Assembly (NCBI RefSeq): GCF_001808955.1
Contig: NZ_KV795253.1
Span: 76,944-140,943, forward strand
DNA length: 64,000 nt
Source: Rothia sp. HMSC078H08
Lineage (GTDB): Bacteria > Actinomycetota > Actinomycetes > Actinomycetales > Micrococcaceae
Direction of reading: 5' to 3'
The notes below the pieces were generated by a model, which was not told the origin of the DNA, did not search any database, and saw only the letters and a program-made list of their open reading frames with translations. The position numbers and the translations under genes were made by a program. Below are positions 2,651 to 60,547 of this stretch, in pieces (the stretch's first letter is position 1; every line of letters begins with the position of its first letter).

Positions 2651-3574
2651 TCAGGCGTTAGTTACCCCCTGCTGGGCTGCAATCAGCGCCTCAAAATGCG
2701 CCGCCATACGCTCGGCGTTCGGTTCCAGTCCGGTGAAGAGGCGGAACGCATCCACCGCCTGACCGACCGCCATGTAGCCACCCGTCAGCATCTCGCACCC
2801 GGCGGCACGCGCCACGCGCACCAGCTGCGTCTCTTGCGGCAGGTAGATGACATCCGCGACCCACAGACCTTCGCGCAGCACCCCGGCGCTCAGTGCCGAC
2901 TCGCTCAGCGGCATGCCCGGATGCACGTGCATGCCCACCGGGGTTGCGTTCACCAAACCCTGAGCTTGTAGTAGAGCTTCAATCAAGCGCTCATCGTCGG
3001 TCAGCACCTCGATTTGAGTCTGCGGGAAGAGCCCGCCCAGCTGCTCCGCCAGCCCCTGAGCCTTCGCCGCGTCATGCTCGAAGAGGCTCAGGCGGCGCAC
3101 CCCCAGGCGGCACAGAGCGTACGCCGTGGCGCTACCGGCACCGCCGGCACCCAGCTGCACCACGTGCTCCAGGCGCGCCGGATCCTCCGCCACCTGCGGT
3201 AGGCCGCGCTTCAGCCCCGCAATGAATCCCGAATAGTCCGTGTTGTCCCCGTAGAACGTACCGTCCTCGCGAATCACCACGCAATTGACCGCGCCCAGGG
3301 CGCGCGCCGCATCCGAAAGTTCGTGCAGGTGCTCCATGACGGACTGCTTGCACGGGTGCGTGATGTTGAAAGCGTTAAAGCCGAGCAGTGCCGCCGCATC
3401 CAGAAGCGCCGGTGCGGATGCGCCGTCCAGGTTCAGAGCGTCCAGGTCGACGGGGCGGTACAGGTAGCGCACTCCGTGCGCGTCGGCCTCGGCCTCGTGC
3501 ATGGGCGGGGTGAGGGAAGAGGTGATGCCATCGCCGATGAGGCCCACCAGGAAAGATTCAGTACGTAAACTCAT
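2651..3574 (-). CDS. Shikimate/quinate dehydrogenase, probably NAD-dependent (QsuD/YdiB type)
   Basis: The 307-residue protein has the AroE fold: SSLTPPMH for substrate binding, the catalytic lysine K76 in NITHPCK, D113 in GDNTDYSG, and the Rossmann motif GAGGAG at 142-147. At the end of the second Rossmann strand it has LFEHD (E166, D168) where biosynthetic NADP-dependent AroE proteins carry an N-R-T motif. Acidic residues there are typical of NAD-using quinate/shikimate dehydrogenases. With the convergent MHS permease this suggests uptake and oxidation of shikimate or quinate. A biosynthetic role cannot be excluded if no other aroE exists. Cofactor preference is inferred from the motif alone. 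Confidence 0.8.
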   Translation of the reverse strand: MSLRTESFLVGLIGDGITSSLTPPMHEAEADAHGVRYLYRPVDLDALNLDGASAPALLDAAALLGFNAFNITHPCKQSVMEHLHELSDAARALGAVNCVVIREDGTFYGDNTDYSGFIAGLKRGLPQVAEDPARLEHVVQLGAGGAGSATAYALCRLGVRRLSLFEHDAAKAQGLAEQLGGLFPQTQIEVLTDDERLIEALLQAQGLVNATPVGMHVHPGMPLSESALSAGVLREGLWVADVIYLPQETQLVRVARAAGCEMLTGGYMAVGQAVDAFRLFTGLEPNAERMAAHFEALIAAQQGVTNA

Positions 3575-3892: not shown

Positions 3893-6800
3893 TTGTCAAC
3901 GACTGACAAGGCTATGGCACGCTTCGCTGGCGCCGATGCATGGATCGAGCAGTATTTTCTGAACAGTCCTGACGATGAGCGTGAAGAATTCACCTCGGCA
4001 GAATTAGAGGATTTGGCTCGCACCCATCGTGCGCTAGCTGAAATCCGCGCCCCCAAGACGTCCGTCGTTGCCGCGCGCAATGATGACTACAACACCACGC
4101 TGTACGTCGCCACGGACGACATGCCCCATATCGTAAGCTCCCTGACCGCCTACCTTTCGGCGCATTTCGGCGGATTCCTCGCGATTTTCCACCCCATCTT
4201 CCTTGCCGAACGCAATACGGATGGCAAGCTCATCAGCCTGCGCGGCACCGGCACCCGAGCCAACCTGGCCAGCGGCGACACCGCCGCCGTCGGTATGCCC
4301 TCCCTGCAGCTTTCCGAGGGCGCTCCCGAGGGGTCCACGGTCACCATTGAATCCTGGATTGCGATTCGCCTGACCCGCTACCTGAACGAAGACGACCTGC
4401 GCCTGCTGGAGCACGATGTGCGTCGCGTGCTCGCCGATGTGCGCGCCTGCTACACCGACCTGGAGGGCATGGTCACCGCGGTCTTCGACATCTCCCAGGC
4501 CATGTACGAGTTGCGCGGCGCCACCCTCGGCCACGGCGAGGAATCCTACGCCGCCAACCCGCGCGGTGTGGAGCCCGCCTCCCGCGTGGAGGTTGCGCAG
4601 GACTTCCTGCGCTGGCTCACCCGAGGCAACTTCGTGTTCATGGGCGTTAAGGAGCGCGTGCTTGACGGCACCTCCGGCGCTATCGCCCTGGTGGACCGCC
4701 CCGGTTCGGCGCTCGGCATCCTGCGTTCGACCGAGGGCAAGAGCCGCATCCCGCTTTCCGGCGACACCCTGGACCGAGCTCTCTTCCCCCGCCCCGTGTA
4801 CATCACGAAGGCTAACTCCCGTTCCACGGTGGCCCGCAACGACTACCTGGACTACATTGGTGTGCGCCGCTTCGATATGAGCGGCCGCGTCATCGGTGAG
4901 TACGTGATTCTGGGCCTGTTTACCCGGCAGGCCTACTCGCTACCCGCTATTGAGACTCCCCTGGTGCGTGAGCGAATCGCCATGGTGCGCCGCCGCCTGG
5001 GTTACCACCCCGGTTCCTACTCGGATAAGGCCCTGCTCGGGGCGCTGGAAGATTACCCGCGCTTGGAGCTGCTGCAGGCCTCGGTCAACGAGCTGACCGA
5101 GACGTTCAGCGGCATCATGGGCCTGGAGGAGCGCCGCAAGACCCGTCTCTTCCTGCGCGCGGATCGATTTAATCGGTTCATTACCGCCGTGGTGTACCTG
5201 CCCCGCGATCACTACAACACTGACGTGCGGTACCGCATCGAGCGGGTGTTCCGACAGGAATTTGATTTGAGTGCCATCGACTACGAGGTGTACCTGTCCT
5301 CCTCGTCGCTGGCCCGCCTATTCTTCCGTATTCGGCTCACCAACCCCAACGATGTGCCGACCACGGATCATCAAGCTCTCGAAAAGCAGATGCAGCAGGT
5401 CACTCGCTCCTGGGTGGAATCCACCGCAGCTGCCATTGAGGCATGGAAACCCGGTGCGGAAGGCCGCCGACTCGCGTCAGCCTGGGCCGACGCAAGCAGC
5501 GCAGCTTACCGAGCCGATTACACAGTAGAACAAGCAATCGAGGATATCGTGATTCTTGAATCTCTCTCGGGCAAGAAGCCCGCCGCAATCAAGGTTGAAG
5601 CCGGCGAAGCCAACACTACCCGACTGAAGACCTACCTGTCCGCACCTCACACTCTCACCGAGCTCCTGCCGGTGATGCAGAACATGGGCCTGGTCGTTGT
5701 GGATCAGAAGCCCTACGAGTTCAAGCCTGAGGACGGCGAAGAGTACGGCTACCTCTACGACTTCGGGGTCGAGTTCCCCGAGGGCGTGGACCCCAACGCC
5801 GTCGCATCCCTCTACGAGGACGCCCTGAACGCCTACCTGCTCGGTGAGCGCGAGTCCGATACTCTGGACCGCCTGATTCTCTCCGAGGGCCTCACCTGGC
5901 AGGATGTACGCCTGTTCCGCGCCCTGAACCACTACCTGATTCAGCTGGGCCTGGGCTACACCCCCTCGTTCATGTCGAACACCCTGCTCGCCAACCCCGG
6001 CATCACCAAGCACCTGGTGGAGTTCTTCAACGTCAGCTTCGACCCGAACAACGGCCTGAACGACGAGCAGCGCAACGCACGCCGCGAAGAGATTGAGGTG
6101 GCCCTGGTTGAGGAACTGAACAAGATTCCCACCCTGGACGCCGACCGCTACCTGCGCTCCCTGAGCAAGGTTATTCGCGCCATCCTGCGCACCAACGCCT
6201 ACCTGGGCCGCGAGGCATTCGCCATCAAGGTTGCACCGCAGCAGATTGATTTCGCACCCCTGCCCCGCCCCAAGTTCGAGATTTTCGTATACTCCCCGCG
6301 CGTCGAGGGTGTCCACCTGCGCTTCGGCGACGTCGCACGAGGCGGCCTGCGCTGGTCCGACCGCCGCGACGACTTCCGCACCGAGGTTCTGGGCCTGGTC
6401 AAGGCTCAGATGGTGAAGAACGCTGTCATCATCCCCACCGGCGCAAAGGGCGGTTTCTACCCCAAGCAGCTGCCCGACCCCGCTGTGGATCGCGACGCCT
6501 GGATCACCGAGGGCCGCGAGTCCTACAAGGTCTTCATCCGCTCCCTGCTGGATGTCACCGATAACCTTGAGGTTGGCACCGACGGCTCCGAGACCGTCGT
6601 TCGCCCCGAGGGCGTCATCGCACGCGACGAGAACGACTACTACCTGGTGGTCGCAGCGGACAAGGGTACCGCCGCATTCTCCGACACCGCGAACGCTATC
6701 AGCCTCGAGCGCGGCTTCTGGCTGGGCGACGCCTTCGCATCCGGCGGCTCCGTCGGTTACGACCACAAGGCAATGGGCATCACCGCACGCGGTGCCTGGG

Positions 6801-8785
6801 AGTCCGTCAAGCGTCACTTCGCCGAGCTCGGCCACGACGCTCAGACCGAAGAGTTCACCGCCGTCGGTATCGGCGACATGTCCGGTGACGTGTTCGGCAA
6901 CGGTCTGCTCCGTTCCAAGGCAACCCGCCTGGTCGCAGCGTTCGACCACCGCGACATCTTCCTGGACCCGAACCCGGACGCAGCCGTCTCCTTCGAGGAG
7001 CGTCAGCGCCTGTACAACCTGCCCCGTTCCTCCTGGCAGGACTACAACCGCGAGCTAATTTCCGCCGGTGGTGGCGTGTACTCCCGCGGCCTGAAGTCCA
7101 TCGAAATCACCCCCGAGGTGCGCGAGGTTCTGGACCTGGACGAGTCCGTCACCGAGCTCGCACCGACCGAGCTGATTGCCGCCATCCTCAAGGCACCGGT
7201 CGACCTGATTTACAACGGCGGTATCGGTACCTACGTGAAGGCCTCCACCGAGACCAACGCACAGGTTGGCGATAAGGCTAACGACGCCCTGCGCGTCAAC
7301 GGCAAGGATTTGCGCGCCAAGATTGTGGGCGAGGGCGGTAACCTCGGCTTCACCCAGCTGGGCCGCATCGAGGCCGCACGTAACGGCGTCATCCTCAACA
7401 CCGACGCTATCGACAACTCCGCAGGTGTGGAGACCAGTGACCGCGAGGTCAACATCAAGATCCTGGTGGACCGCCTCGTGGCTCGCGGTGAGCTCTCCAG
7501 CGAGGAGCGCGCCTCCTTCATCGAGTCCCTGCAGGACGAGGTTGGCGGCAAGGTCCTCGAGACCAACGTCAACCAGAACGTACTGCTGCAGGGCGAGTTC
7601 CACGGTTCCTTCCTGGGCACCAACCTGTACAAGCGCCTCATGCACGACCTGGAGGAGCACGCCGGCCTGAACCGCGCCGTCGAGTTCCTGCCCACCGACG
7701 AGGAGCTGGACGAGCGCCTGGAGACCACCGGTGACCGCCTGACCCGCCCCGAGCTGGCTGTCCTGGCTGCGTACGTGAAGATTTACCTCACCCACGCCCT
7801 GGAGCAGACCGACTTCGCGGACGACCCCTACCTGGAGGGCGTGCTGCGCAGCTACTTCCCGGCAGCACTCGTCGAGCGCTTCGGTCAGCACCTGGACTCG
7901 CACCCGCTGCGTAAGGAAATCATCTGCACCCGCGTGGCCAACGAGCTGGTCAACATTGGTGGCATCACCTTCGCGTACCGCATCATGGAGGAGTTCAACG
8001 TCGGTATCGACTCCGTCGCCCGCGCCTTCATCGTGGCCCGCGAGCTCTTCGAGCTCGGCACCGCCGCTAAGCTGCACAGCGAGCTGTCCCCGAAGACCCC
8101 GCTGGATGCATGGTTCACCGTGCTGCGCGACAACCAGCGCGTTCTGGATCGTGCGGTCCGTTGGTTCATCACCGAGCGTGGCGTGGTTGCCGGCACAACC
8201 ATCTCCGAGCTGCTCGAGAACTTCGGTTCCGTCGTCGAGATGCGTCGCAACCTGCCCGAGTACCTTTCCGGCATCTCTCGCGCTCGCGTCCGTGCAAAGC
8301 GCGACGCAGGCGAGGCATGGGGCCTGCCCGAGGATCTCATTGTCATCTGGATCCGCGGCTTCGAGGGCTACGCCCTGCTGGACGTGATTCGTTCGGCCGC
8401 CGATCACGACTTCGAGGCAACCTCGCTGGCACCGGTCTACTTCGCCACCTACGACCGCTTCAAGGTGGACGAGCTGCTCGGCCTCATCACCGAGTTGCCC
8501 CGTAGCGACCGCTGGGAGATTCTGGCACGCCAGGCAATGCGCGGTGCCCTCTACGAGACCGCCGCAGAGCTGGCACTGTCCGTGGCTGAGGGCGCGAAGG
8601 GTGACTTCTCCACCGTGGACGGTGCACAGCAGGCTCTGGCTGAGTGGATTGAGGAGCACCCGACCCGCGTGGGTAACATCGACCGCATCCTCGACGAGAT
8701 TGCTGAGGCAGCTCCGGATGCAACCGGTCACCCGCGACTGGCTGTGGTCTCCGTGGCCCTGCGCACCCTCGCTAGCGCATCCTAA
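3893..8785 (+). CDS. gdh: NAD-specific glutamate dehydrogenase, large (180-kDa, L_180) class
   Basis: At 1630 residues this matches the L_180 bacterial NAD-GDH family, which oxidatively deaminates glutamate to 2-oxoglutarate and feeds amino-acid carbon into the TCA cycle. The catalytic core is near residues 810-850 (RGGLRWSDRRDDFRTE, KNAVIIPTGAKGGF), followed by the nucleotide-binding part with GIGDMSGDVFGNG and EGGNLGFTQ. The long N-terminal region (about 1-700) is the regulatory/ACT-like extension of the family. The start is a TTG, chosen because CGGAGG lies five bases before it and MSTTDKAM... begins there. It forms a single-gene unit ended by the hairpin at 8852. Confidence 0.95.
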   Translation: MSTTDKAMARFAGADAWIEQYFLNSPDDEREEFTSAELEDLARTHRALAEIRAPKTSVVAARNDDYNTTLYVATDDMPHIVSSLTAYLSAHFGGFLAIFHPIFLAERNTDGKLISLRGTGTRANLASGDTAAVGMPSLQLSEGAPEGSTVTIESWIAIRLTRYLNEDDLRLLEHDVRRVLADVRACYTDLEGMVTAVFDISQAMYELRGATLGHGEESYAANPRGVEPASRVEVAQDFLRWLTRGNFVFMGVKERVLDGTSGAIALVDRPGSALGILRSTEGKSRIPLSGDTLDRALFPRPVYITKANSRSTVARNDYLDYIGVRRFDMSGRVIGEYVILGLFTRQAYSLPAIETPLVRERIAMVRRRLGYHPGSYSDKALLGALEDYPRLELLQASVNELTETFSGIMGLEERRKTRLFLRADRFNRFITAVVYLPRDHYNTDVRYRIERVFRQEFDLSAIDYEVYLSSSSLARLFFRIRLTNPNDVPTTDHQALEKQMQQVTRSWVESTAAAIEAWKPGAEGRRLASAWADASSAAYRADYTVEQAIEDIVILESLSGKKPAAIKVEAGEANTTRLKTYLSAPHTLTELLPVMQNMGLVVVDQKPYEFKPEDGEEYGYLYDFGVEFPEGVDPNAVASLYEDALNAYLLGERESDTLDRLILSEGLTWQDVRLFRALNHYLIQLGLGYTPSFMSNTLLANPGITKHLVEFFNVSFDPNNGLNDEQRNARREEIEVALVEELNKIPTLDADRYLRSLSKVIRAILRTNAYLGREAFAIKVAPQQIDFAPLPRPKFEIFVYSPRVEGVHLRFGDVARGGLRWSDRRDDFRTEVLGLVKAQMVKNAVIIPTGAKGGFYPKQLPDPAVDRDAWITEGRESYKVFIRSLLDVTDNLEVGTDGSETVVRPEGVIARDENDYYLVVAADKGTAAFSDTANAISLERGFWLGDAFASGGSVGYDHKAMGITARGAWESVKRHFAELGHDAQTEEFTAVGIGDMSGDVFGNGLLRSKATRLVAAFDHRDIFLDPNPDAAVSFEERQRLYNLPRSSWQDYNRELISAGGGVYSRGLKSIEITPEVREVLDLDESVTELAPTELIAAILKAPVDLIYNGGIGTYVKASTETNAQVGDKANDALRVNGKDLRAKIVGEGGNLGFTQLGRIEAARNGVILNTDAIDNSAGVETSDREVNIKILVDRLVARGELSSEERASFIESLQDEVGGKVLETNVNQNVLLQGEFHGSFLGTNLYKRLMHDLEEHAGLNRAVEFLPTDEELDERLETTGDRLTRPELAVLAAYVKIYLTHALEQTDFADDPYLEGVLRSYFPAALVERFGQHLDSHPLRKEIICTRVANELVNIGGITFAYRIMEEFNVGIDSVARAFIVARELFELGTAAKLHSELSPKTPLDAWFTVLRDNQRVLDRAVRWFITERGVVAGTTISELLENFGSVVEMRRNLPEYLSGISRARVRAKRDAGEAWGLPEDLIVIWIRGFEGYALLDVIRSAADHDFEATSLAPVYFATYDRFKVDELLGLITELPRSDRWEILARQAMRGALYETAAELALSVAEGAKGDFSTVDGAQQALAEWIEEHPTRVGNIDRILDEIAEAAPDATGHPRLAVVSVALRTLASAS

Positions 8786-9293: not shown

Positions 9294-10649
9294 TTGTCCA
9301 CCAACCACGGTAGCGAGGAACAGCGCGCTAGCGCGTGGCGCCTCCTCATTAACTTTCTGCTATACGTTTCCCCGGTCGCGCTGCTGACCACTGTCTTCCC
9401 CATCGTCACGCCCACCATCAACAGGTACAACTTGGGTGGCGTGCCCCTGATTCAGGTGATTCTGGCTGCATCCATCACCGTGCCCTGGCTTAGCCAGGCC
9501 GCCTGCCTGCCGCTCTATCGAGCCATTCAGATGGAGCATAAGAAGATTGCGGATGCCCGCGAAACCCTGCGCATCCAGGCTGAGACGCTCGAGAATCAGC
9601 TCAAGCGTGCCGAGGCGAAGGCTACCCGCGAGCGTCTGAACGAACCCCAGTTCCAGGACATTACCGACCTGGCCGCGTTCAGCCGCAACTGGATTTACCT
9701 CTTCTTCGTGACCATGCCGCTGGTGTTGCTTTTCGCAATTCCGGTTGCCCTCGTACTGAAGTGGAACGCGACTGCCGTCGGTGCCTTCTTCGTACTCGGC
9801 GTGCTCAACATTGCCTTCGCGCAGCTGCTGGTCATCCCCAACCTCGCGAAGAACCGCGTTATCTGGTTCATCGCCTGGCTCGGCTACACCCTGGCCCTGT
9901 ACTTCTTCCCCATCATCTGGTTCCTGCCGCCGCTCGTTGGCTCGCTTATCCTGCTGATTGGCCTGGGTAAGAACTTTGTGCACCTCTTCCGCTTTGCGCA
10001 TATTCCGCTCAAGGACGTCGCAAAGGATGCTCTGCGTGGCTTCCTGACCGGCTCCATCATCTGGGCCGATAAGTACATGCTCTTCCTGGCCACCTCCGGT
10101 GAGATTAACGTCGTGGCCATTTACATGAGCCTGATTCCCGCCGTGATCGCTTACAACTACTTCTTCGTGGTAGAGGCCGATCGCGTCAACGACGCAATTC
10201 AGTACCTGTGGACCGTGTTCGAGCGCCTGCCCTACAACCGCGTTCGCGAAGAGGCTCATAAGGCCACCCGTGCCTCCGACCGTTCGATTCGCAACTCGCT
10301 ACTCGTCTACATCGGTAGCGGCATCATTACCGGCATCCTGATGTTTATCTTCATGCCGGATTCCTTCCCGCTGGCGCTGATGGGTCTGGTCGTCGCGTTC
10401 CTCTTCGTGGCCGTCGCCCTGCTTATCTACCAGATTGAGTACATGACCATGTTCAAGACCGTGCAGGTGCTCTCCGCGGCGCACCTCATTCTGCTCATGA
10501 TCTGCTTCGCAATCCTGCCGAACGAGACCGGATACCTGCCCATCATCGTGGGCGAGGCAGTCCTTGCGTACGCCTGCTACCGGGTGTACCGTCAGGCTTG
10601 GCAATCACCCGAATACTCTCTCTTCTGGCGCCGCGCACTCGCCTGGTAA
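9294..10649 (+). CDS. PelG-like polysaccharide export membrane protein
   Basis: The 451-residue protein has about 12 predicted membrane helices, the size and layout of PelG, the MOP-superfamily inner-membrane transporter of the Pel exopolysaccharide system. The WADKYMLFL segment followed by YMSLIPAVIAYNYFFVVEAD resembles the conserved PelG block WVDKW...YLSIIPG...ETDF. A charged stretch, possibly coiled coil, lies at about 80-120 between helices. The TTG start has only a weak SD, so the exact N-terminus is uncertain. The next gene is PelF-like, the usual partner of PelG. No pelA deacetylase, pelB, pelC, pelD or pelE is nearby. The PelG assignment rests on recognition by eye. Confidence 0.7.
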   Translation: MSTNHGSEEQRASAWRLLINFLLYVSPVALLTTVFPIVTPTINRYNLGGVPLIQVILAASITVPWLSQAACLPLYRAIQMEHKKIADARETLRIQAETLENQLKRAEAKATRERLNEPQFQDITDLAAFSRNWIYLFFVTMPLVLLFAIPVALVLKWNATAVGAFFVLGVLNIAFAQLLVIPNLAKNRVIWFIAWLGYTLALYFFPIIWFLPPLVGSLILLIGLGKNFVHLFRFAHIPLKDVAKDALRGFLTGSIIWADKYMLFLATSGEINVVAIYMSLIPAVIAYNYFFVVEADRVNDAIQYLWTVFERLPYNRVREEAHKATRASDRSIRNSLLVYIGSGIITGILMFIFMPDSFPLALMGLVVAFLFVAVALLIYQIEYMTMFKTVQVLSAAHLILLMICFAILPNETGYLPIIVGEAVLAYACYRVYRQAWQSPEYSLFWRRALAW

Positions 10650-10663
10650 CGCCTGCCCGCACA

Positions 10664-10695
10664 CCGGGTCCGCAGACATCGTTCTGCGGGCCCGG
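10664..10695 (+). other. Intercistronic hairpin between the PelG- and PelF-like genes
   Basis: Arms of 13 bp (10664-10676, 10683-10695, one G-U pair) enclose a six-base loop in the 89-base gap. There is no T-run, so it more likely sets relative expression or mRNA stability than stops transcription. Confidence 0.5.
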
Positions 10696-10738
10696 CCAAG
10701 AACACACCACGTAGCACGGCCCGCGAAAGACACAACCA

Positions 10739-12457
10739 ATGACTGAACAGATGTACCGAAACCACTATGCTCCCCTGCAGCTTCCGGAGCCCGGAGAGCA
10801 CTACACCGATCCCGAGTACCCGGATGTCGATGTCGCCATCATCATGGAGTCCACCTACCCCTACCTCAAGGGTGGCGTCTCCGCGGTGGTGCACGATATC
10901 GTCTCTGAGAACCCCGACCTTTCCTTCGGCATTATCCACATCGCGTGGGATAAGAACTCGCCGCACGAGGATCTCTACGGCATGCCCAAGAACGTCAAGT
11001 GGGTTAAGGTGATCTACCTGAGCCTCGACGTCAACCGTGCTGCCTTCGCCGCCGAGTGCGATCCCGACAGCCTGCACATGAAGATGCCGCAGCGTCGAGA
11101 GCTGGCTGATCGACTCATCCAGGGCTTCAACGCGCTCATCGCCGGCGACGTCAACCCCCTCTGGAAGCTCTACGACGAAGGCATCAACCCCGCCACCCGC
11201 ACCTACAACCTCTTTGGGCTCTTCGGTACCCGCGAGTTCATGCAGGTTATCGCCAACCTCGGGTTCTTCAGCGAGGTTCCCTTCGGCGAGCTCTTCTGGA
11301 AGGTGCGCGACTTCGTCTCCATCCTCTTCGCGCTGCTGCACGAGCGGATGCCCCACGCCCGCGTGTACCACGCCCACACCACCGGCTACGCGGCTCTCAT
11401 CGCTGCCGCTGCCGCCCGTGACCACGGCACCAGCTTCCTGCTGACCGAGCACAACCTGTACATTCGCGACACCATCAACACCAAGCTCGAGCGCAACATG
11501 GCGAAGCCGATTACCACCGACTACGCTTTCCTCGCTGAGGAGCGTGAGCACCCGGGCCTGGGCCCCATCACCCTTGACGAGCGAGCCTGGTCCGTCTGGT
11601 TCCTGGAGATGGGTCGCTTCTGCTACCCGAGCGCCGACATGGCCACCTACCTGTACCCCAAGGCACTGGAGGAGGCGCGCGGCATCGGTGCGCCCATCGA
11701 CCAGATGAACGAGGGCGAGAAGGACCGCGCCATCATCCTGCCCAACGGCATGCTCATCGAGTCCGTGGCTGAAGCCTACTACGCCCGCCAGGCGGCGCGT
11801 GCGCGCATCCTCGCCGAGGGACGCGGCCACGTGTGGCGCTTCGTGTTTATCGCCCGCGTGGTGCCCATTAAGGGCCTCACCGACCTGATTCGCTCCCTCG
11901 CGGTGCTGCGCGATCAGGGCCTCGTGAACTTCCACCTGGATGTGCTCGGCCCCAAGGACCACCTGCCCGAGTACTACGAGCTGTGCCTGCGCACCATCGA
12001 AGAGCTCAACATGGGCGAGTACATCACCTTCCACGGAACCGTGAATGTGCGCGCCATGCTGGACCGCTTCGACCTGCTGCTCATGCCCAGCTACAATGAG
12101 GGTCAGCCGATTGTGGCGCTCGAGGCGATGGCTGCGTCCATCCCGCTGGTCAGCACCGACGTGGGCGGTATGTCCCAGCTCATCGACGATGTGCTGGTCG
12201 CCCCCGACGGCCACGAAATCGGTAACTGCGGTATCTTGACCATCCCCGGCGATATTCACGGCTTCGCGGCGGCGCTGCGCACCCTCATGGAGGAGCCCAG
12301 CATCTACGAACGTTACTGCGTGAACGCCTACGACCGTATCGTCAGCTTCTTCCAGCTGCGCCTGGTCATGGACCGCTACAACACGATCTACCGTGAGCTG
12401 GGCAAGCTGCCCCCTCGCGCCCCCGAATTCGACCCGGAGTACGATGGCGACGAGTAA
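10739..12457 (+). CDS. PelF-like family-4 glycosyltransferase
   Basis: This is a GT-B fold transferase of 572 residues. The N-terminal segment AIIMESTYPYLKGGVSAVVHDIV matches the PelF/DUF3492 signature (glycine loop GGV), and the C-terminal half holds the GT4 E-x7-E motif NEGQPIVALEAMA. PelF is the cytosolic polymerising transferase that uses UDP-activated N-acetylhexosamines in Pel systems. Here it follows a PelG-like exporter and overlaps a hydrolase-like gene by 14 bases, so the three are probably one operon. The SD is weak. The sugar donor cannot be read from the sequence. Confidence 0.85.
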   Translation: MTEQMYRNHYAPLQLPEPGEHYTDPEYPDVDVAIIMESTYPYLKGGVSAVVHDIVSENPDLSFGIIHIAWDKNSPHEDLYGMPKNVKWVKVIYLSLDVNRAAFAAECDPDSLHMKMPQRRELADRLIQGFNALIAGDVNPLWKLYDEGINPATRTYNLFGLFGTREFMQVIANLGFFSEVPFGELFWKVRDFVSILFALLHERMPHARVYHAHTTGYAALIAAAAARDHGTSFLLTEHNLYIRDTINTKLERNMAKPITTDYAFLAEEREHPGLGPITLDERAWSVWFLEMGRFCYPSADMATYLYPKALEEARGIGAPIDQMNEGEKDRAIILPNGMLIESVAEAYYARQAARARILAEGRGHVWRFVFIARVVPIKGLTDLIRSLAVLRDQGLVNFHLDVLGPKDHLPEYYELCLRTIEELNMGEYITFHGTVNVRAMLDRFDLLLMPSYNEGQPIVALEAMAASIPLVSTDVGGMSQLIDDVLVAPDGHEIGNCGILTIPGDIHGFAAALRTLMEEPSIYERYCVNAYDRIVSFFQLRLVMDRYNTIYRELGKLPPRAPEFDPEYDGDE

Positions 12458-13640
12458 GTTCGAACGGCTCGGCGGCCCGGGAAAGTTTGGTGCCTGGGTC
12501 CGCTACGGCGGAAAACCCATCACCCAGCAGCAGCTCGACTTTGCGGTCAAGAATTACTCCGTGGCGATTCTGCAGCCCTGGGAGCTGGAGGCTGCCCGCT
12601 ACCTCAAGAAGCACGCCCCGCAGATGGTGGTCCTGGCCTATAAGTGCCTGTCCTCCACCCGCTCCTACGAGCCGGGTCCCATCTACTCCTCGGGTCTGTC
12701 TTTCGCGCAGGCCGTCTCGCTGGCGAATTCCGGTAAGGATTTCTTTGCGCATCGCCTCAACGGCGACCGCATCGAGTGGAAGGGTTATTCCAAGCACTAT
12801 CAGATGCAGGTGTGGAACCCCGGCTACCGCTGGTACTGGGTGGATTCAGTGGTGCGCGAGATGCGCGACTCGCCCTTCGACGGCGTTATGGGTGATAACG
12901 ACGTGGAGAACGACTACTACGGTCTGAATCTGCCCATTCAGGGCGTGCAGTCTATGACCACGATTCGTGAGGGCCTGGACCGCCTGGTGGCTTCTGCCGG
13001 CGCCGAACTAAATGGCATCGGCAAGATTCTGGTGCCCAATATTGCCGAGTCGCGCCTGCGCTGGGGCAAGTGGGAACGCCACAGTGCCTACGGCGGCGGT
13101 TTCGAGGAGGTGTGGCTTGGCTGGGGCCCGAACGATTACCTGGCTTCGCCCTACGCCGTGATGCAAGGCCGCGATATTGCGCGCGGTTCCGGTGGCGACG
13201 TGTCGCTCGGGGTGTACCTCACCGGCCTGAAGCGCGGTGCCTCCACGCAGAAGAAGGTGACGATTCTGCGCACCCCCCTGAGCGGCCGGAAGTCGCCTCT
13301 GACCGGTACGGACGAGAACTTCCTCTACGGCCTGGCCGGCTTCTGGGTCTTTGGCGGGGGAAACTTCACCGGCATTAGCGCGACCCACCATGACGCCTAC
13401 GATGAGATTCCGCACGCCCCCGAGCTCACCTTTGATCTGGGGGACGCCGCGGGTGGCATCGTGGTTCAGGGAACGGTTCAGACCCGCACCTTTACGCGCG
13501 GCTGGGCGGCGCTGAATACCGGCTCGAAGGATGTGACCGTGAAGGTTCCCTCTAATCTGGTGGATGCGGCAAACCGCCCGGTGCCTTCGAGCTTCACGCT
13601 GCGGGCGCATCAGGGTGTGGTGTACCGCCGTAAGGCGTAA
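12444..13640 (+). CDS. Glycoside-hydrolase-like protein of the Pel-like locus (GHL15-like)
   Basis: The ATG at 12444 (GGAG four bases upstream) overlaps the end of the PelF-like gene by 14 bases, so the two are translationally coupled. The 398-residue product looks like a TIM-barrel hydrolase of the putative GHL15 group. Acidic clusters such as FDGVMGDNDVEND near 145-160 could carry catalytic residues, and the last 80 residues look like a beta-sandwich. There is no signal peptide or membrane anchor, which is odd for an enzyme trimming an exported polymer. Its position recalls the hydrolase part of PelA, but I see no deacetylase domain. The last 89 bases of the gene region recur downstream of the next gene. 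Confidence 0.65.
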   Translation: MATSKFERLGGPGKFGAWVRYGGKPITQQQLDFAVKNYSVAILQPWELEAARYLKKHAPQMVVLAYKCLSSTRSYEPGPIYSSGLSFAQAVSLANSGKDFFAHRLNGDRIEWKGYSKHYQMQVWNPGYRWYWVDSVVREMRDSPFDGVMGDNDVENDYYGLNLPIQGVQSMTTIREGLDRLVASAGAELNGIGKILVPNIAESRLRWGKWERHSAYGGGFEEVWLGWGPNDYLASPYAVMQGRDIARGSGGDVSLGVYLTGLKRGASTQKKVTILRTPLSGRKSPLTGTDENFLYGLAGFWVFGGGNFTGISATHHDAYDEIPHAPELTFDLGDAAGGIVVQGTVQTRTFTRGWAALNTGSKDVTVKVPSNLVDAANRPVPSSFTLRAHQGVVYRRKA

Positions 13641-13759: not shown

Positions 13760-14344
13760 GTGAATATTCTTTTGATTGACGGCGGTAAAGCATTCGCCCA
13801 CTCGGCGGGTCGCCTGAACCACACCCTGCATCAAGTAGCCCGTGATACGTTATCGGCGCTCGGTCATCATGTGCGAGAAACTGTGATTGACGACGGGTAC
13901 GATATTCACCAGGAAGTAGAAAAATTCCAGTGGATGGATGCGGTCATCTGGCAGATGCCCGGTTGGTGGATGCACGAGCCGTGGACCGTGAAAAAATATA
14001 TGGACGAGGTGTTTACCGCGGGCGCGGGTACCCTGTACGCTAATGATGGTCGCCACAGGGTCAGCCCCACTGAAGGATACGGCACGGGCGGTCTTCTTCA
14101 GGGTCGTCGGCATATGCTGTCGCTGACGTGGAACGCGCCTCGCGAAGCTTTTACCCGGGAGGGCGACTTCTTTGAGGGACTCGGGGTAGATGCCCTCTAT
14201 ATGCACTTTCATAAGGCCCATGAGTTCATGGGTACTACCCAGTTGCCCACCTTTATTTGCTATGACGTGATTAAAAATCCGCAGGTCGAACAGTATCTCG
14301 CTGACTATACTGCCCGCCTCAACGAGGTCTTCGGTCAGGCGTAA
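13760..14344 (+). CDS. mdaB: NADPH:quinone oxidoreductase MdaB
   Basis: The 194-residue flavodoxin-fold protein is strikingly similar to proteobacterial MdaB, with IWQMPGWWM, PWTVKKYMDEVFT, GTLYANDGR and MLSLTWNAPREAF all matching. MdaB reduces quinones by two electrons and protects against oxidative stress. The GTG start has a good SD (AAGGAG, nine bases away). Base composition is visibly less GC-rich than that of the neighbours. The gene sits exactly between two copies of the 3' end of the preceding hydrolase gene, which indicates insertion of a cassette, probably by horizontal transfer. No integrase or transposase accompanies it. Confidence 0.93.
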   Translation: MNILLIDGGKAFAHSAGRLNHTLHQVARDTLSALGHHVRETVIDDGYDIHQEVEKFQWMDAVIWQMPGWWMHEPWTVKKYMDEVFTAGAGTLYANDGRHRVSPTEGYGTGGLLQGRRHMLSLTWNAPREAFTREGDFFEGLGVDALYMHFHKAHEFMGTTQLPTFICYDVIKNPQVEQYLADYTARLNEVFGQA

Positions 14345-18999: not shown

Positions 19000-20517
19000 A
19001 TGAACAACGTGGAATGGACCCCCGAATGGCTTACTGAAACCATCAAACTACTGCGTACTCACGGTAGCGATACGCAGTTTATCGAGGTTAAAAAAGCCCA
19101 CGGAGGCTACCCCGGAAGCCTAGACGCAACCCTTAGTAGCTTCTCCAATAGTTCCACGGGCGGAATCATTATCTGTGGACTCGATGAGAATAATGACTTT
19201 GCACCTGTAGGCGTATACGACCCTGCAGACCTAGAAAAAACCCTCGGTAACAAGCTCCGCAGGGGCCTCAAGCCTCCGAACACCATGGAATCTGGCACTA
19301 TCCTCTATGAAGGCACCAAAATCTTTGTTGCCACAATTCCTCCGCTGCCTCCCTACGAACGACCCGCCTACATTGGCGGTAAAGCGTACGTGCGTTCCGG
19401 CGACGGTGACCACGAAATGAGCCGCCACGAAACCGACCTGATGGTGGCTCAGCGGACACGCACCGGATTCGATGAGGAGCCGGTGGAATACACCTCCATA
19501 GCTGACCTAGACGAAGGCCTCAAAACTGCTTATCTGCGAGACGTACGCGCTAAATCACGCCGCCTTGCTGGAAGCTCCGATGAAGAAGTGCTCCGCCGCA
19601 AGGGAATTATTGCCCTCGGAACCGACAACCTTTCCCTTGCCGGCCTGTACGCCTTGGGTTCTTACCCCCAAGAGTTCAGGCCCTCGCTCAAAGTCACTGG
19701 AGTCGTCATCGACCCAAACGGTAAAGCTCGCAACCTCGACAAATTCGAGGCGGACGGCCCCATCCCCGCCATGCTCGAAGAGACTCTGGCATGGATCAAT
19801 CGGAACCTGGCACACCCGGTTGTCGAGCTGTCCAATGGGCATCTCATCAACGGGCAGGAAGTACCCGATATTGCCCTTCGTGAGATTCTGTCGAATGCAC
19901 TCGTACACCGCAGCCTCAACCCCAAAGCAGATACCGAAGAGGTGCGCGTCAGGATTTTCCCCGACCGAATCTCTGTAGAGAACCCTGGTGGTCTATACGG
20001 AATCACTCTCCAGCGCCTGCAAGAGTATGGAGAACGTTCCCGCGTGAACGACCGCCTGTATGACGTCTGCACGCACGTAACAACCCCCGACGACGGATAC
20101 CGAGTCATCGAGGGCGAGGGTAGCGGCATCTACACTGCCCAGGAGGCGGTGCGTCAGGCAGGGCTGAAACCCATCCAATTCATTGATGGGGTCATTCGTT
20201 TTACCGCGATTATTAGCCGGGAGCCTCTGGTTGGTGCTCGTGCCGCCGACGTCGGTTCACCGAAGCAGAAGTCGGAAGCAGGCCCGCGCCAATCGTCACC
20301 TACGGTTCCCAGCAGCCGTCAGGAGGCGGTGCTCCTCGCTCTGCGCTCGCTACGTCACCCCGCCGGTATCGACGACATCATGGGTGCTCTTCCCGGGCCT
20401 TTTGCTGAGCTGCGGAAGCCGCAGGTCCGGTACGTTCTGACAAAGCTTCTTCAAGAGGGCGTAATCGTGCGTGAAGGTGGTCGAGGCAACCGCAATACGA
20501 CATACCGCCTGGCCTAA
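19000..20517 (+). CDS. AlbA_2 / GHKL-ATPase / winged-helix regulator-like protein
   Basis: The 505-residue protein has three parts. Residues about 10-140 form an AlbA_2 (Schlafen-like) domain with TQFIEVKKAHGGYP and GGIIICGLDE. Residues about 280-400 form a GHKL-type ATP-binding domain with the N-box LREILSNALVHRSL and a G-rich IEGEGSGI loop. Residues about 435-505 form a winged helix. Relatives are annotated as ATP-binding or RecG-related regulators, and a few sit in defence or stress islands. The operator cluster covering its own promoter suggests autorepression. Composition is less GC-biased than in the flanking genes, consistent with acquisition. Its cellular target is unknown. Confidence 0.8.
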   Translation: MNNVEWTPEWLTETIKLLRTHGSDTQFIEVKKAHGGYPGSLDATLSSFSNSSTGGIIICGLDENNDFAPVGVYDPADLEKTLGNKLRRGLKPPNTMESGTILYEGTKIFVATIPPLPPYERPAYIGGKAYVRSGDGDHEMSRHETDLMVAQRTRTGFDEEPVEYTSIADLDEGLKTAYLRDVRAKSRRLAGSSDEEVLRRKGIIALGTDNLSLAGLYALGSYPQEFRPSLKVTGVVIDPNGKARNLDKFEADGPIPAMLEETLAWINRNLAHPVVELSNGHLINGQEVPDIALREILSNALVHRSLNPKADTEEVRVRIFPDRISVENPGGLYGITLQRLQEYGERSRVNDRLYDVCTHVTTPDDGYRVIEGEGSGIYTAQEAVRQAGLKPIQFIDGVIRFTAIISREPLVGARAADVGSPKQKSEAGPRQSSPTVPSSRQEAVLLALRSLRHPAGIDDIMGALPGPFAELRKPQVRYVLTKLLQEGVIVREGGRGNRNTTYRLA

Positions 20518-24105: not shown

Positions 24106-25296
24106 CTATCCGCGCCGTCCCGCTCGTGCTGCAAAGTCGTCGAGGGCGCGGTTGAGAGCGGGGACAGTCCACACTTTTTGCCCCTGAATTTTGACGCGTT
24201 CTTCACGCAGAATTTGCAACTCCACCATGCGGTTGAGGAGGCGATACACACTAGCCCGGGACCCCCGCGTGTGTTCCTCCACCATGCGTGCGGTGAAGGC
24301 GGGCTCGGTACAGCACAGGTCGGTGAGGGAACGCAGGAGAGGGGTTTTACGCTGGGCAATGGACAGCACCTCATCGCGCAGGGTTTCAATGTCTTGCGCC
24401 AGGATTTCTGCGTTGGTAATTGCCTTCTGTGTGGCGTCGATGAAGAGCTCGATGATGGGCTCGGCATCGCCTGCACGGTAGTCGGTGAGCGCCTGAATGT
24501 ACCCATCGGTATCGTGCAACAGCCCGGAGGAGACGGGCAGAATCACGTGGCGGGTGACGCCGCAGGCGAGCAGGAGCGCGGAGATGAGGGCTCGCCCGGT
24601 TCTGCCGTTGCCGTCAGTGAAAGGGTGAATCGTTTCAAATTGGGCGTGCGCGATAGCCGCCTGCGCGAGGGGGTCAATATCGCGGCGGTTCATGAAGGCT
24701 ACAAGGTCTTCGAGGGCGGCAGGAACCCTCTCGTGATGCGGCGCCACATAGTCGGCGGTTACCGGCGAATCGCCCTTAATCCACACCCACTGGGTGCGGA
24801 GTACGCCGGAGTCCTGCTGTAGGCCGCGGGTCAGTTCGCGGTGCATCGCGAGGATGTTATCGACGCTAATGTTTTCTGCGGTGTTCAAGGCTGCACGCAT
24901 GGCGTGAACGTTGCGTGCCACCAGCTCGGCGTTAACGCCAACTTTCGACCCGCTTGCACCCAGGACAGCCAGTGAGAGCTTGCGGGCACTAACGGTGAGG
25001 TTTTCGATCTGCGAGCTGGAGGCGGATTCGCCACGCAGAAGAACCGCAGAGAAGGGGATGCCGCCGATGTGGTGGAGCCGCTCATCGAAGCGGGTCATTG
25101 CGGTGGCGTTCTCCTGGAGGCGCGCTCGCAGTGCGGGGCTGAGTTCGACGTTGAGTGCGGCAATGGAAGCGGGTACGGCGCTGGAGAAGGTGCCGGAGTT
25201 GCGGCGCGTTGCGCGTCGGGAGGCGAGGGCGTCCCGGTGAACCCAGGGGGTTTGCGGCTCCCATGTGAGGGCGGGCCAGGTGGTGGCTGAGGGCAT
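24106..25296 (-). CDS. Fic-family protein with C-terminal winged helix
   Basis: The 396-residue protein has the complete Fic active-site motif HPFTDGNGRTGR (H224-R235), which AMPylates target proteins. An intramolecular class II inhibitory motif is present (S94-SQI-E98-N99), so activity is probably self-restrained. Residues about 320-390 form a winged-helix DNA-binding domain (RASVYRLLNRMVELQIL). The ATG has a strong SD (GGAGGAGG). The promoter region holds palindromes that this domain could bind. Targets are unknown. The gene stands alone, with no antitoxin-like partner. Confidence 0.9.
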   Translation of the reverse strand: MPSATTWPALTWEPQTPWVHRDALASRRATRRNSGTFSSAVPASIAALNVELSPALRARLQENATAMTRFDERLHHIGGIPFSAVLLRGESASSSQIENLTVSARKLSLAVLGASGSKVGVNAELVARNVHAMRAALNTAENISVDNILAMHRELTRGLQQDSGVLRTQWVWIKGDSPVTADYVAPHHERVPAALEDLVAFMNRRDIDPLAQAAIAHAQFETIHPFTDGNGRTGRALISALLLACGVTRHVILPVSSGLLHDTDGYIQALTDYRAGDAEPIIELFIDATQKAITNAEILAQDIETLRDEVLSIAQRKTPLLRSLTDLCCTEPAFTARMVEEHTRGSRASVYRLLNRMVELQILREERVKIQGQKVWTVPALNRALDDFAARAGRRG

Positions 25297-57316: not shown

Positions 57317-60300
57317 CTACGAAGCAATCTTCGCGATCTGGAATATGGACGCCGGCATCGGCCGGTCCAACGACCAGCGAATATGCATCGGCTTAGAGCC
57401 CTCGTGAGAAATGTATTTCACGGTGCCCAGGCACATGTATGGACTGGTGCCTAGATCGTCTGTCTTGACGTGGCGAACAAAAAGAACGATGCGGCGCCCC
57501 AACTCTTCATGATGTTGGAGGACCTGCCCTATCTCAGTATTAGCAGAGGTCTTGTTATCCGAGTCCCATGCGAATTCAGACCTGCTGATGGCATAGTCCT
57601 TGTACATGGTGGCCGGTGAAAAGTGCTTCTCGGATTTCTCCAACGTCACCAGTAGTGCTGTAGTGCTTGACGAGCTGAAGGTCCTGACACCCTGCTGGAA
57701 ACCGGCTGGTACACCAAAACTTCCCTCTTGACCACCCAGACCAGCAAATAGTTCCTCACGGGAGTAGTAGGCGTGAGTGCGCAGAGGAACGCCTTCGCCC
57801 TCAAAAAGCGGCAGGGTGGAGACGGTATCCGTAGCGGCATTGAAGTTCCAGACGCTCTCCAACTCCTGCAGCATACCGCGGTTCTTGCGCAGGGTTGCCA
57901 GGCCCTCGTCGAGGGTGAACTTCTTGGTGGAGCCGTCCCACTTGGCCTTCGGCCAGATGGAGAACAGTAGCATCCATGCATGGCGGCGTTGTTCATCGGT
58001 CATGTCCTGCTCCAGGATATCCGTGTTCAGCAGCTCCAGGTAGGCGTTAATGCGGAACGTGTCGTGCACGTGCGTGAGTGCCTTGACACGCTTATTCGTC
58101 TCGACGGCCACGTTGTCATGGAAGGGAACCACCAGGTCGGGGTACAGCCCAGTTGCAGCCTGGAGGCTGGTCCAGGTCGTTGCGACGGGCTTAGTGACAC
58201 CGGGCAGGGGCACCTTGCTGCTACGGCCGTAAATCTGCGGCAGTCCCAATCCGTAGTGGTTGATGAAGTCAATGACGGTGGGACGAATATCGAGGTCCGT
58301 GGAGTTTCGGCGCATATCTTCCAGGTAGCTCTTTGCGGTGTCGATGAGGGCGCTCTGATTCATGCGCAGGGACTCGCGAATCTTCTGGATGACCTGCTTC
58401 TGAGTCAGCTCGTCCAGGTGGAAGTGACAGCCAGCCGGTAGTTCAGGGCTCTTAATATCATCCACAGTCAGGGCACCTTGTCGTGCAAAAGCGCGGTACT
58501 TGCTGTGAATCATGAAGTTCTTGTTCTGATGTCCCACAAAGTCGAGGACCGTCAGAACAGACTTCAACGGCGCACGGCGCAGGCCGCGGCCCAGCTGTTG
58601 CAGGAAGAGGGTGAGCGACTGGGTGGGGCGCAACATCAGGAGCGTGTCGATGTTCGGAATATCGACGCCCTCGTTGAACAGGTCCACGGTGAAGATGGTC
58701 GTCAGCTCGTGGTTGTCATCCGCAAGATTCCCCATAACCTCGGCACGACGCTCGGCGGAATCCGTACCCACCAAGCAGTCTGCCGGGAGTCCTATTTCGT
58801 TGAATTTCTGGGCCATGTATTTGGCGTGCTTGACGCTCACGCAGAAGCCGAGCGCCTTCATGCGCAGGGGGTTGTCGACCTTCTTGCGTAGCTCCTCCAC
58901 AATGATGCGCAGGCGGCGTTCAGCATCCTTGTGGTCGGTGTACCGCTTTTCCAGGTCGGTTTCGTCGTACCGGCCACCCCGAACGTTGACGCGGCGCAGG
59001 TCGGTGCCGTCGGCAATACCGAAGTACTGGAAGGGCACGAGGAGGTGGTCTTCGAGTGCGTCCCACAGGCGGATGGAGGTTGCCACGTAGCCGCCAAAGT
59101 ACTTGTCGGCGATGTTCACTCCGTCTTCTCGCTCCGGGGTCGCGGTCAGGCCAATGAATTCGCGGGGTTCAAAATAGTTAAAAACTTTATCCCAGCTGGC
59201 GGCCTCAATGTGGTGACATTCATCCATGATGATGACGTCGAAATAGTCCGGCGCGTAACTTTCGAGGGCGGCACCTGACAACGTTTGAACGGTCGCAAAA
59301 ACAGCCTCATTATATTCAGGCTTTTTGCCGCCGGTCAGGAGCTCACCGAAATTACCTTTAAGCATGACGTCGCCGAAAGTGCGGCGCGCCTGGTCTAGGA
59401 TTTCTTTTCGGTGTGCAATGAAAAGCAACTTTAGCTTTTTGCCGTACTGCTCGCAGAGGCGCTTGTAATCGAGAGCCGAGAACACGGTTTTGCCGGTGCC
59501 GGTTGCGGCCACGGCGAGGTTACGGTGGCGGCCCTTAGAACGAGCGTTCTGCATCTCTTCGAGCATGCGCACCTGATGCGGGAACGGGTGCACATCCAGC
59601 AGGGACGAGTCGATATCGTACTCCAGGCCCTTGCTTTTACGGCCGGTAATATCCGCCTTGGCCAGGGCAGTATCCAACTCCTGTTTCTCCTGGTCAGAGG
59701 CGGTGTAAAGGGTAAAATCGCCGCTCTTCCAGTAGCTTTCAAACAGGCCTTCAAACTGGCGGATCAGGCCGGGTGTAATCGGGTTAGAGATGCGAACATT
59801 CCACTCCAGGCCGTCAGTGAGTGCGGCACTGGACAGGTTCGAGCTGCCCACATAGCCGGTGGACATGCCGGTATTGCGGTGGAACAGCCAGGCCTTCGCG
59901 TGCAGTCGGGTGCTGTCGCCCTGGTAACTGATTTTTACCTCGGCACCGTACTCTTCAACGAGGCGGTCGATAGCCTTGCGGTCGGTTGCGCCCATGTAGG
60001 TGGTGGTAATAATGCGGAAAGGGATACCGCGATTTTTAATAGCTTTAAGCTGCTCACTCAAACTATTAACGCCGGACATTTTAAGAAATGAGCAGAGCAA
60101 ATCTACGCGGTCTGCACTTTCTAATTCTTTCTGAATTTCAGTATTGAGATTCAGGTCTTTAGAAGTATTCGTCATCAGAGCAACGTCACTCAGAGGAATA
60201 TCGGGGCGCGTAGTTTTTGCGTCAGTGAGGGCGAGCTCGCGCATCTGAATTACGTTGCTGTCGTCATCGGTCAGCAACGAATCGTTCTGCTCTTCGGCAT

Positions 60301-60547
60301 CCTGCGGCAGGAGCTCCATCATGCGGTTGATGAGTTCCACCTGGTCTGCGGGGGTCTTGAGGCTTTCGAGGGCGGGGGTCAGCTGGGTGGCGAAGAACTG
60401 GGTGAGCAGTTCGGGGATGTTGTAGTCGTCCTTTTCGAGGATTTCTTCCTGCCATTGCGCGCCTTCAGGGATGGTGCGGCTCATGAGCGATGCGCTCTTG
60501 AGGTGTTCGTAGAGCCCCAGGGGGAGAGTTTCGTCAGTTGTGGTCAT
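57317..60547 (-). CDS. PLD-nuclease / SF2 helicase / DUF3427 protein
   Basis: The 1076-residue protein starts with a helical part, then a phospholipase-D-type nuclease domain (about 150-280) with HAKAWLFHRN and GSSNLS. An SF2 helicase follows: AATGTGKT (about 348-355), DECHH (box II), GLTATPER and QQLGRGLRRAP (box VI). The C-terminal about 400 residues match DUF3427. This architecture is widespread and sometimes found in anti-phage or restriction islands. No methylase or partner gene is adjacent, and no genetic link shows its target. The start ATG is preceded by a 300-base region with strong inverted repeats. Confidence 0.9.
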   Translation of the reverse strand: MTTTDETLPLGLYEHLKSASLMSRTIPEGAQWQEEILEKDDYNIPELLTQFFATQLTPALESLKTPADQVELINRMMELLPQDAEEQNDSLLTDDDSNVIQMRELALTDAKTTRPDIPLSDVALMTNTSKDLNLNTEIQKELESADRVDLLCSFLKMSGVNSLSEQLKAIKNRGIPFRIITTTYMGATDRKAIDRLVEEYGAEVKISYQGDSTRLHAKAWLFHRNTGMSTGYVGSSNLSSAALTDGLEWNVRISNPITPGLIRQFEGLFESYWKSGDFTLYTASDQEKQELDTALAKADITGRKSKGLEYDIDSSLLDVHPFPHQVRMLEEMQNARSKGRHRNLAVAATGTGKTVFSALDYKRLCEQYGKKLKLLFIAHRKEILDQARRTFGDVMLKGNFGELLTGGKKPEYNEAVFATVQTLSGAALESYAPDYFDVIIMDECHHIEAASWDKVFNYFEPREFIGLTATPEREDGVNIADKYFGGYVATSIRLWDALEDHLLVPFQYFGIADGTDLRRVNVRGGRYDETDLEKRYTDHKDAERRLRIIVEELRKKVDNPLRMKALGFCVSVKHAKYMAQKFNEIGLPADCLVGTDSAERRAEVMGNLADDNHELTTIFTVDLFNEGVDIPNIDTLLMLRPTQSLTLFLQQLGRGLRRAPLKSVLTVLDFVGHQNKNFMIHSKYRAFARQGALTVDDIKSPELPAGCHFHLDELTQKQVIQKIRESLRMNQSALIDTAKSYLEDMRRNSTDLDIRPTVIDFINHYGLGLPQIYGRSSKVPLPGVTKPVATTWTSLQAATGLYPDLVVPFHDNVAVETNKRVKALTHVHDTFRINAYLELLNTDILEQDMTDEQRRHAWMLLFSIWPKAKWDGSTKKFTLDEGLATLRKNRGMLQELESVWNFNAATDTVSTLPLFEGEGVPLRTHAYYSREELFAGLGGQEGSFGVPAGFQQGVRTFSSSSTTALLVTLEKSEKHFSPATMYKDYAISRSEFAWDSDNKTSANTEIGQVLQHHEELGRRIVLFVRHVKTDDLGTSPYMCLGTVKYISHEGSKPMHIRWSLDRPMPASIFQIAKIAS

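Follow-up and report, generated by a model that had tools for sequence, protein, structure and literature searches.

Can a Pel-type polysaccharide be made and exported by a PelF-type glycosyltransferase and a PelG-related transporter that lack their usual partners, and what would a hydrolase be doing beside them inside the cell? The question is raised by a three-gene locus in a 64,000-nucleotide stretch of DNA (here termed the window) from Rothia sp. HMSC078H08 (contig NZ_KV795253.1, positions 76,944 to 140,943), which a first inspection of the sequence, referred to below as the original prediction, had described as a compact and reduced Pel-like locus. In the answer that we favour, to which we attach about an even chance, the locus is an autonomous, cyclic di-GMP (c-di-GMP)-independent, Pel-derived cassette for polysaccharide synthesis and export, of which the intracellular hydrolase is a core part. 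As had been proposed, the genes are consecutive on the + strand, within positions 9294-13640:

9294-10649, + strand: exporter gene with a TTG start, encoding a predicted MOP-fold membrane protein of 451 amino acids, a remote PelG relative
10739-12457, + strand: gene for a PelF-family glycosyltransferase of family GT4 (DUF3492 plus GT4; 572 amino acids)
12444-13640, + strand: gene for a GHL15 TIM-barrel, glycoside-hydrolase-like protein of 398 amino acids, in which no signal peptide was seen
12444-12457, + strand: overlap of the PelF and GHL15 genes, 14 bases, read from the sequence

All three reading frames are intact, and their codon-position composition is gene-like. The mechanical open reading frame (ORF) of the GHL15 gene begins at GTG 12393; ATG 12444 is the approximate start of many GHL15 relatives in the alignment, and with this start the 14-base overlap of the last two genes, already noted in the original prediction, holds. 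Through this overlap translation of the PelF and GHL15 genes is likely to be coupled.

The connection with Pel is provided by the glycosyltransferase. The protein satisfies the curated NCBI equivalog model for PelF (NF038011) with 205.1 bits against a cut-off of 100, over model positions 1-489, which bears out its description as a PelF-like GT4 enzyme, and it contains the Pfam domains PF11997 (8e-40) and PF13692 (4e-24). The E-x7-E motif of retaining GT4 enzymes is present (NEGQPIVALE), as it is in all 45 PelF ORFs of more than 440 amino acids (43 by pattern and two in the printed exceptions). The PelFs of five relatives score 211-243 bits on the same model. As a canonical actinobacterial PelF scores 486.8 bits, and the PelFs of three canonical actinobacterial loci are 27-29% identical to the window protein, the latter is, by these measures, a divergent member of the PelF family. 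In a midpoint-rooted tree of 48 PelF rows (45 from loci with the same three genes, hereafter the trio, the window included, and three canonical, one of them long and of unusual composition) the trio proteins form one clade remote from the canonical rows, and the branches between the two groups are very long, at 7.3 and 2.7 changes per column. A cluster of the ten Rothia rows has support of 92/84, rising to 99/96 for the nine rows without R. kristinae, which fits descent within the genus; the branching order of the larger groups is left unsettled by the tree.

The trio is a recurrent actinobacterial cassette and is not peculiar to R. mucilaginosa. In one scan of genome contigs with the exporter alignment 49 loci were recovered; they are drawn from two peptide patterns and represent a lower bound. 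The hosts comprise Rothia, Kocuria, Arthrobacter, Pseudarthrobacter, Geodermatophilus, Kineococcus, Virgisporangium, Piscicoccus, Arsenicicoccus and Pengzhenrongella, together with a Corynebacterium, a metagenome-assembled genome (MAG) of the Acidimicrobiaceae and others. One further contig (L076; WNZI01000020.1) belongs to a record that carries the title Vibrio cholerae strain 35D; as the tree places its PelF among those of Arthrobacter, this contig very probably contaminates the assembly. Wherever the contig extends far enough, in 45 loci of 45, GHL15 is no more than 2.5 kb from PelF or the exporter, and in the four of the 49 loci from which it is absent the contig ends no more than 31 bases past the last match. 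In 35 of the 45 loci the hydrolase gene is on the same strand and at most 400 bp after PelF; it is on the same strand but farther away in four, and upstream or on the opposite strand in six. Among 33 same-strand PelF-GHL15 pairs (both ORFs longer than 300 amino acids, mechanical starts, window included; 12 loci with a short or missing ORF and five with another arrangement are omitted) the genes overlap by exactly 4 bases in 21 and by another length in five, with no overlap in seven. That the exporter, PelF and GHL15 recur together in other genomes argues that their association is more than chance. Within Rothia, for which 35 genomes were compared (G001-G025 and G040-G049), the exporter was found in 11 of 25 and GHL15 in 15 of 35; 10 of the 11 exporter-bearing genomes contain GHL15, the exception being 65% complete. 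Across the phylum the trio is rare: only two of 396 evenly drawn genomes, scored at up to four candidates each, gave a match, namely the genome nearest to the window (G001) and one weak partial match.

This distribution also bears on the possibility that the locus is a decaying remnant of a Pel system. Exporter and GHL15 frames are indeed interrupted or fragmentary in Rothia aeria AP017895.1 (G002/L030) and in G021 (C11); intact relatives exist. The window frames, however, are unbroken, the putative catalytic residues of the hydrolase (see below) are invariant over 29 rows and the trio recurs across families, and we consider decay scarcely credible. Nor does the term 'reduced' suit a cassette that recurs in actinobacteria, including Arthrobacter and Kocuria, and whose PelFs form a clade of their own far from the canonical rows. 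The part in the stickiness of R. mucilaginosa for which the original prediction named the locus a candidate is conjectural; the trio occurs in Arthrobacter, Kocuria and further genera as well, and GHL15 in only 15 of 35 Rothia genomes.

The hydrolase matches GHL15 (PF14885) with 205.5 bits against the Pfam cut-off of 27, and a hydrophobic stretch is lacking at the N-terminus in all 29 aligned rows, in accord with the original description of a hydrolase-like protein without signal peptide. In this respect the hydrolase of the locus, to which the secretion check was confined, is unlike the secreted PelA, and it looks intracellular. It had been suggested that the protein be compared with GHL15, GH114 and PelA profiles: membership of GHL15 was borne out, while the predicted fold appears nearer to GH168 than to PelA, with the alpha-galactosaminidases (GH191, GH114 and the PelA hydrolase, GH166) next. 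The fold group therefore includes alpha-galactosaminidases and the PelA hydrolase, which speaks for the Pel-derived cassette. The GH166 PelA hydrolase and the GH191, GH114 and GH135 endo-alpha-galactosaminidases appear less like GHL15 than is GH168 and act on secreted polymers, unlike the window protein as we read it. The GH168 structures matched (9nhf, 9jom, 8rg3 and 8ya6) are of known or putative fucan-degrading enzymes, whereas the window protein has no signal peptide. It is predicted to share with GH168 both the fold and a catalytic Asp/Glu pair, encoded as follows:

12894-12896, + strand: codon of D151, the predicted catalytic nucleophile (DGVMGDND), invariant in 29 of 29 aligned rows
13104-13109, + strand: codons of E221 and E222 (GGGFEE), either of which is the predicted acid/base, invariant in 29 of 29 aligned rows

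D151 lines up with a DGxxxD segment in a protein of GH168, and it precedes E221/E222 by 70-71 residues, as Asp167 precedes Glu237 in MeGH168; E202, likewise invariant, is a further candidate for the acid/base. Given the invariance of these putative catalytic residues, and the overlap of PelF and GHL15 in 26 of the 33 pairs counted, an active enzyme working with PelF is favoured over a dead scaffold.

The likeness to GH168 raises the possibility that the same machine handles another sugar, the polymer not being based on N-acetylgalactosamine (GalNAc) and GHL15 cleaving, in the manner of GH168 enzymes, an alpha-linked chain of a deoxyhexose or of another sugar. Identity to the GH168 structures is just 12-18%, however, so that specificity is not readable from the likeness, and the neighbours of the trio in some relatives suggest a hexosamine; we regard this alternative as improbable. 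A gene of the NAD-dependent epimerase family, GalE-like in our reading, occurs in 11 of the 49 trio loci, directly after GHL15 in 10 of them, and there is a weaker twelfth match in L050. An actinomycete MAG has a gene of the Spherulin4 family (GH135) interposed between PelF and GHL15 (L060:4667-5908). In Pengzhenrongella frigida (L064:201-9422) four GGDEF proteins are encoded upstream of the exporter; one of them also contains EAL, and two contain GAF. Five loci (L038:14146-15666, L043, L059, L066 and L076) have directly after GHL15 a gene for a protein of about 500 amino acids which, in Arthrobacter, displays by eye a DGIFLDD segment and a signal-like N-terminus; no Pfam or PDB match to this fourth-gene protein was found and its profile reaches just 11.9% probability against GHL15, and a secreted TIM-barrel hydrolase is possible. 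Together these neighbours, each found in a minority of loci, suggest a GalNAc-type polymer. A short ORF that follows GHL15 in a Corynebacterium MAG (L075:13820-14476) has weak likeness to the C-terminal half of GT4 enzymes and is possibly a partial second transferase.

The exporter was modelled with the fold of MOP-superfamily flippases, and the best structural matches of the model are WzxE and MurJ, flippases of lipid-linked glycans. It could be argued, therefore, that the locus belongs to a Wzx-type lipid-linked pathway, in which the GT4 enzyme adds sugars to a lipid carrier, leaving the lipid-linked glycan to be flipped by the MOP protein and trimmed or recycled by the hydrolase, the likeness to PelF reflecting ancestry and not a shared polymer. 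It should be emphasized, however, that the fold matches listed include no structure of PelG, so that the ranking of WzxE and MurJ is not a fair contest. Moreover, the ORFs scanned around the locus gave no recognisable priming transferase, polymerase or ligase, the glycosyltransferase satisfies the PelF equivalog model, and the exporter profile is closer to PelG than to Wzx, MurJ or MATE proteins. Against the canonical PelG profile it reaches 57-83% probability depending on the alignment, the best comparisons giving 77.1-83.0% (E 2e-5 to 9e-6), compared with at most 1.1% against MurJ and Wzx (21 rows of 34 loci and 18 of 30, respectively, after an ORF-length filter), at most 0.7% for reversed profiles and 0.9-9.9% for eight shuffles. 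The absolute percentages depend on the set-up, as the positive check of MurJ with Wzx gave 98.3% under a 50% column rule and 0.8% under a first-row rule, and canonical PelG with MurJ gave 6.2% and 30.7%, respectively. Homology between the exporter and canonical PelG thus appears remote, standing above the controls; a PDB sequence search with the exporter profile gave no match up to E 10. On balance we hold the lipid-linked pathway to be unlikely, if still deserving of some weight.

Is the Pel-derived cassette completed by partners encoded elsewhere? None of PelD, PelE and PelA was recognised near the trio among the 25 of 47 candidate ORFs of the window scanned with Pfam, as the original prediction had stated, and no complete pelDEA set was found elsewhere in Rothia, a search that did not extend to PelE or to a PelD lacking GGDEF. 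A GGDEF domain (PF00990) was found in none of the 35 Rothia genomes, compared with eight of 14 controls, and the model does match the PelD-like gene of the canonical actinobacterial pel locus; the genus may therefore lack c-di-GMP synthesis. The PelD-specific model PF16963 also gave nothing in the 35 genomes, a null that proves little as its controls were silent. The Agd3-type Pel deacetylase (PF25115) was found in none of the 35 and in two of three canonical pel genomes, the 14 standing controls being silent. CE4 deacetylases do occur in 20 of the 35 Rothia genomes, but their presence does not follow the trio (10 of the 15 genomes that have GHL15 and 10 of the 20 that lack it), and CE4 was accordingly dropped as a candidate for the missing Pel deacetylase. 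The nearest genome has two CE4 deacetylase genes in facing orientation (L093:7419-8594, + strand, and L093:10545-11516, - strand), whose products have N-termini that look, by eye, like those of lipoproteins; two strong CE4 matches per genome were also seen in G002, G010, G011, G021 and G023. A canonical Pel system whose PelD, PelE and PelA are unlinked to the trio could draw on these paired CE4 deacetylases of R. mucilaginosa-type genomes, on a PelD without GGDEF, as described for Streptococcus intermedius in the available part of PMC12345266, which would evade the GGDEF search, and on a PelE, which lay outside the genome searches. Set against the null results for GGDEF and Agd3-type proteins in the 35 Rothia genomes, and the indifference of CE4 to the trio, such an arrangement seems to us very improbable.

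Comparison with characterized systems reveals what the Pel-derived cassette would share with them. The Gram-positive Pel locus pelDEADAFG of Bacillus cereus and S. intermedius, so far as the available sections of PMC7112168 and PMC12345266 describe it, likewise combines a PelF-type glycosyltransferase with a PelG-related translocase. Bacillar pel loci have, in the same portion of PMC7112168, genes for a hydrolase and for a GalE-type epimerase nearby, as do some trio loci, and Pel of S. intermedius is independent of c-di-GMP, as we propose for the trio. In contrast, no PelD, PelE or PelADA was recognised at the trio, its exporter lies outside PF16933, the order is exporter, glycosyltransferase, hydrolase, and the hydrolase, without a signal peptide, is present in all 45 loci able to show it. 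The canonical actinobacterial pel locus (G090/L159 and L078), from the same phylum, also has PelF and PelG adjacent, the closest named protein being PelG of Rubrobacter xylanophilus; its order, a GAF-GGDEF PelD-like gene, one unassigned gene, PelF, PelG and an Agd3-type deacetylase, is unlike that of the trio.

From the gene linkage, family matches, predicted folds and invariant putative catalytic residues we infer the sugar, its linkage, its export and the location and role of the hydrolase as follows. PelF would polymerize a nucleotide-activated amino sugar in the cytosol, most likely UDP-GalNAc, and the PelG-related MOP-fold protein would carry the chain across the single membrane. GHL15, in association with PelF, would act within the cell to trim chains or to clear those that have stalled. 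In contrast to known Pel, the cassette would in Rothia dispense with a PelD/c-di-GMP switch and with an Agd3-type Pel deacetylase, so that its polymer is probably neutral and acetylated and retained at the surface. A more specific version concerns an enlarged loop in the exporter:

9522-9689, + strand: enlarged exporter loop, residues 77-132, with predicted helices, present in the rows closest to the window

The stretch from R76 to W133 is 57-58 residues long in four of 27 exporter rows, namely the window and three rows that share 54% identity or more with it, and 21-25 in the other 23; the model places helices at 52-101 and 105-114. We propose tentatively, as a possibility well short of an even chance, that the trio represents a separate branch of synthase-type polysaccharide export, that PelF polymerase and PelG-related translocase constitute its minimum machine, needing neither PelD, PelE nor c-di-GMP, that the GH168-like intracellular hydrolase is an obligate third subunit setting the length of the nascent chain before or during export, and that the enlarged loop takes on docking of the polymerase in R. 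mucilaginosa and its closest kin.

Several observations weigh against a Pel-derived cassette. The original prediction called the exporter PelG-like; what stands of this is the remote profile-profile tie, which drops to 15.4% with larger alignments (68 and 113 rows). The Pfam model for PelG (PF16933) does not match the window exporter at E up to 1, nor any of 20 relatives from the alignment with E relaxed to 10, and is silent in all 35 Rothia genomes, its Thermotoga control being positive. Of the two family memberships on which the prediction was staked, that of PelF holds and that of the exporter in the Pfam PelG family does not. An iterated search with a 27-row exporter profile retrieved 35 proteins, seven of them new relative to the first search (P0153-P0159, three of these short), none carrying PF16933 and none forming a bridge to PelG; both searches scored 7999 candidates. 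The hydrolase fold appears nearest to GH168 fucanases and not to galactosaminidases. Epimerase, Spherulin4 and GGDEF genes accompany only a minority of the loci, and the window has none of these neighbours. Finally, pelD and pelE are each required in known Gram-positive Pel (PMC7112168 and PMC12345266, available sections), and neither was recognised at the trio; even in S. intermedius, where the same part of PMC12345266 reports c-di-GMP to be dispensable, PelD, PelE and PelADA are needed.

Gram-positive loci with only pelF and pelG have been mentioned before, in the legend to S3 Fig of PMC7112194, the part of that source available. Relative to these the trio with an intracellular GHL15 appears to be new, no description of it being found among the matches listed from the mainly open-access literature searched. 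If the proposal is correct, a Pel-type exporter needs little, neither c-di-GMP control nor PelD and PelE, and the PelF/PelG mechanism becomes open to study with no more than two or three proteins. Oral Rothia and other Micrococcaceae would also gain a candidate surface polymer, and the question arises of why a polysaccharide polymerase should be paired, apparently by coupled translation, with an intracellular hydrolase.

The trio is flanked by housekeeping genes:

2651-3574: AroE-like gene
3893-8785: NAD-glutamate dehydrogenase gene
13760-14344: flavodoxin-like oxidoreductase gene

The exporter and its counterpart in Rothia mucilaginosa 141_RMUC are 100% identical, and just 31% of the 31-letter words of the window are shared with the nearest genome compared. 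An Rfam scan of the entire window gave no match at the gathering threshold. Elsewhere the window encodes an AlbA_2/Schlafen plus RecG-C-like protein (19000-20517), a Fic-domain protein (24106-25296) and a PLD-ResIII-DUF3427 helicase-type protein (57317-60547).
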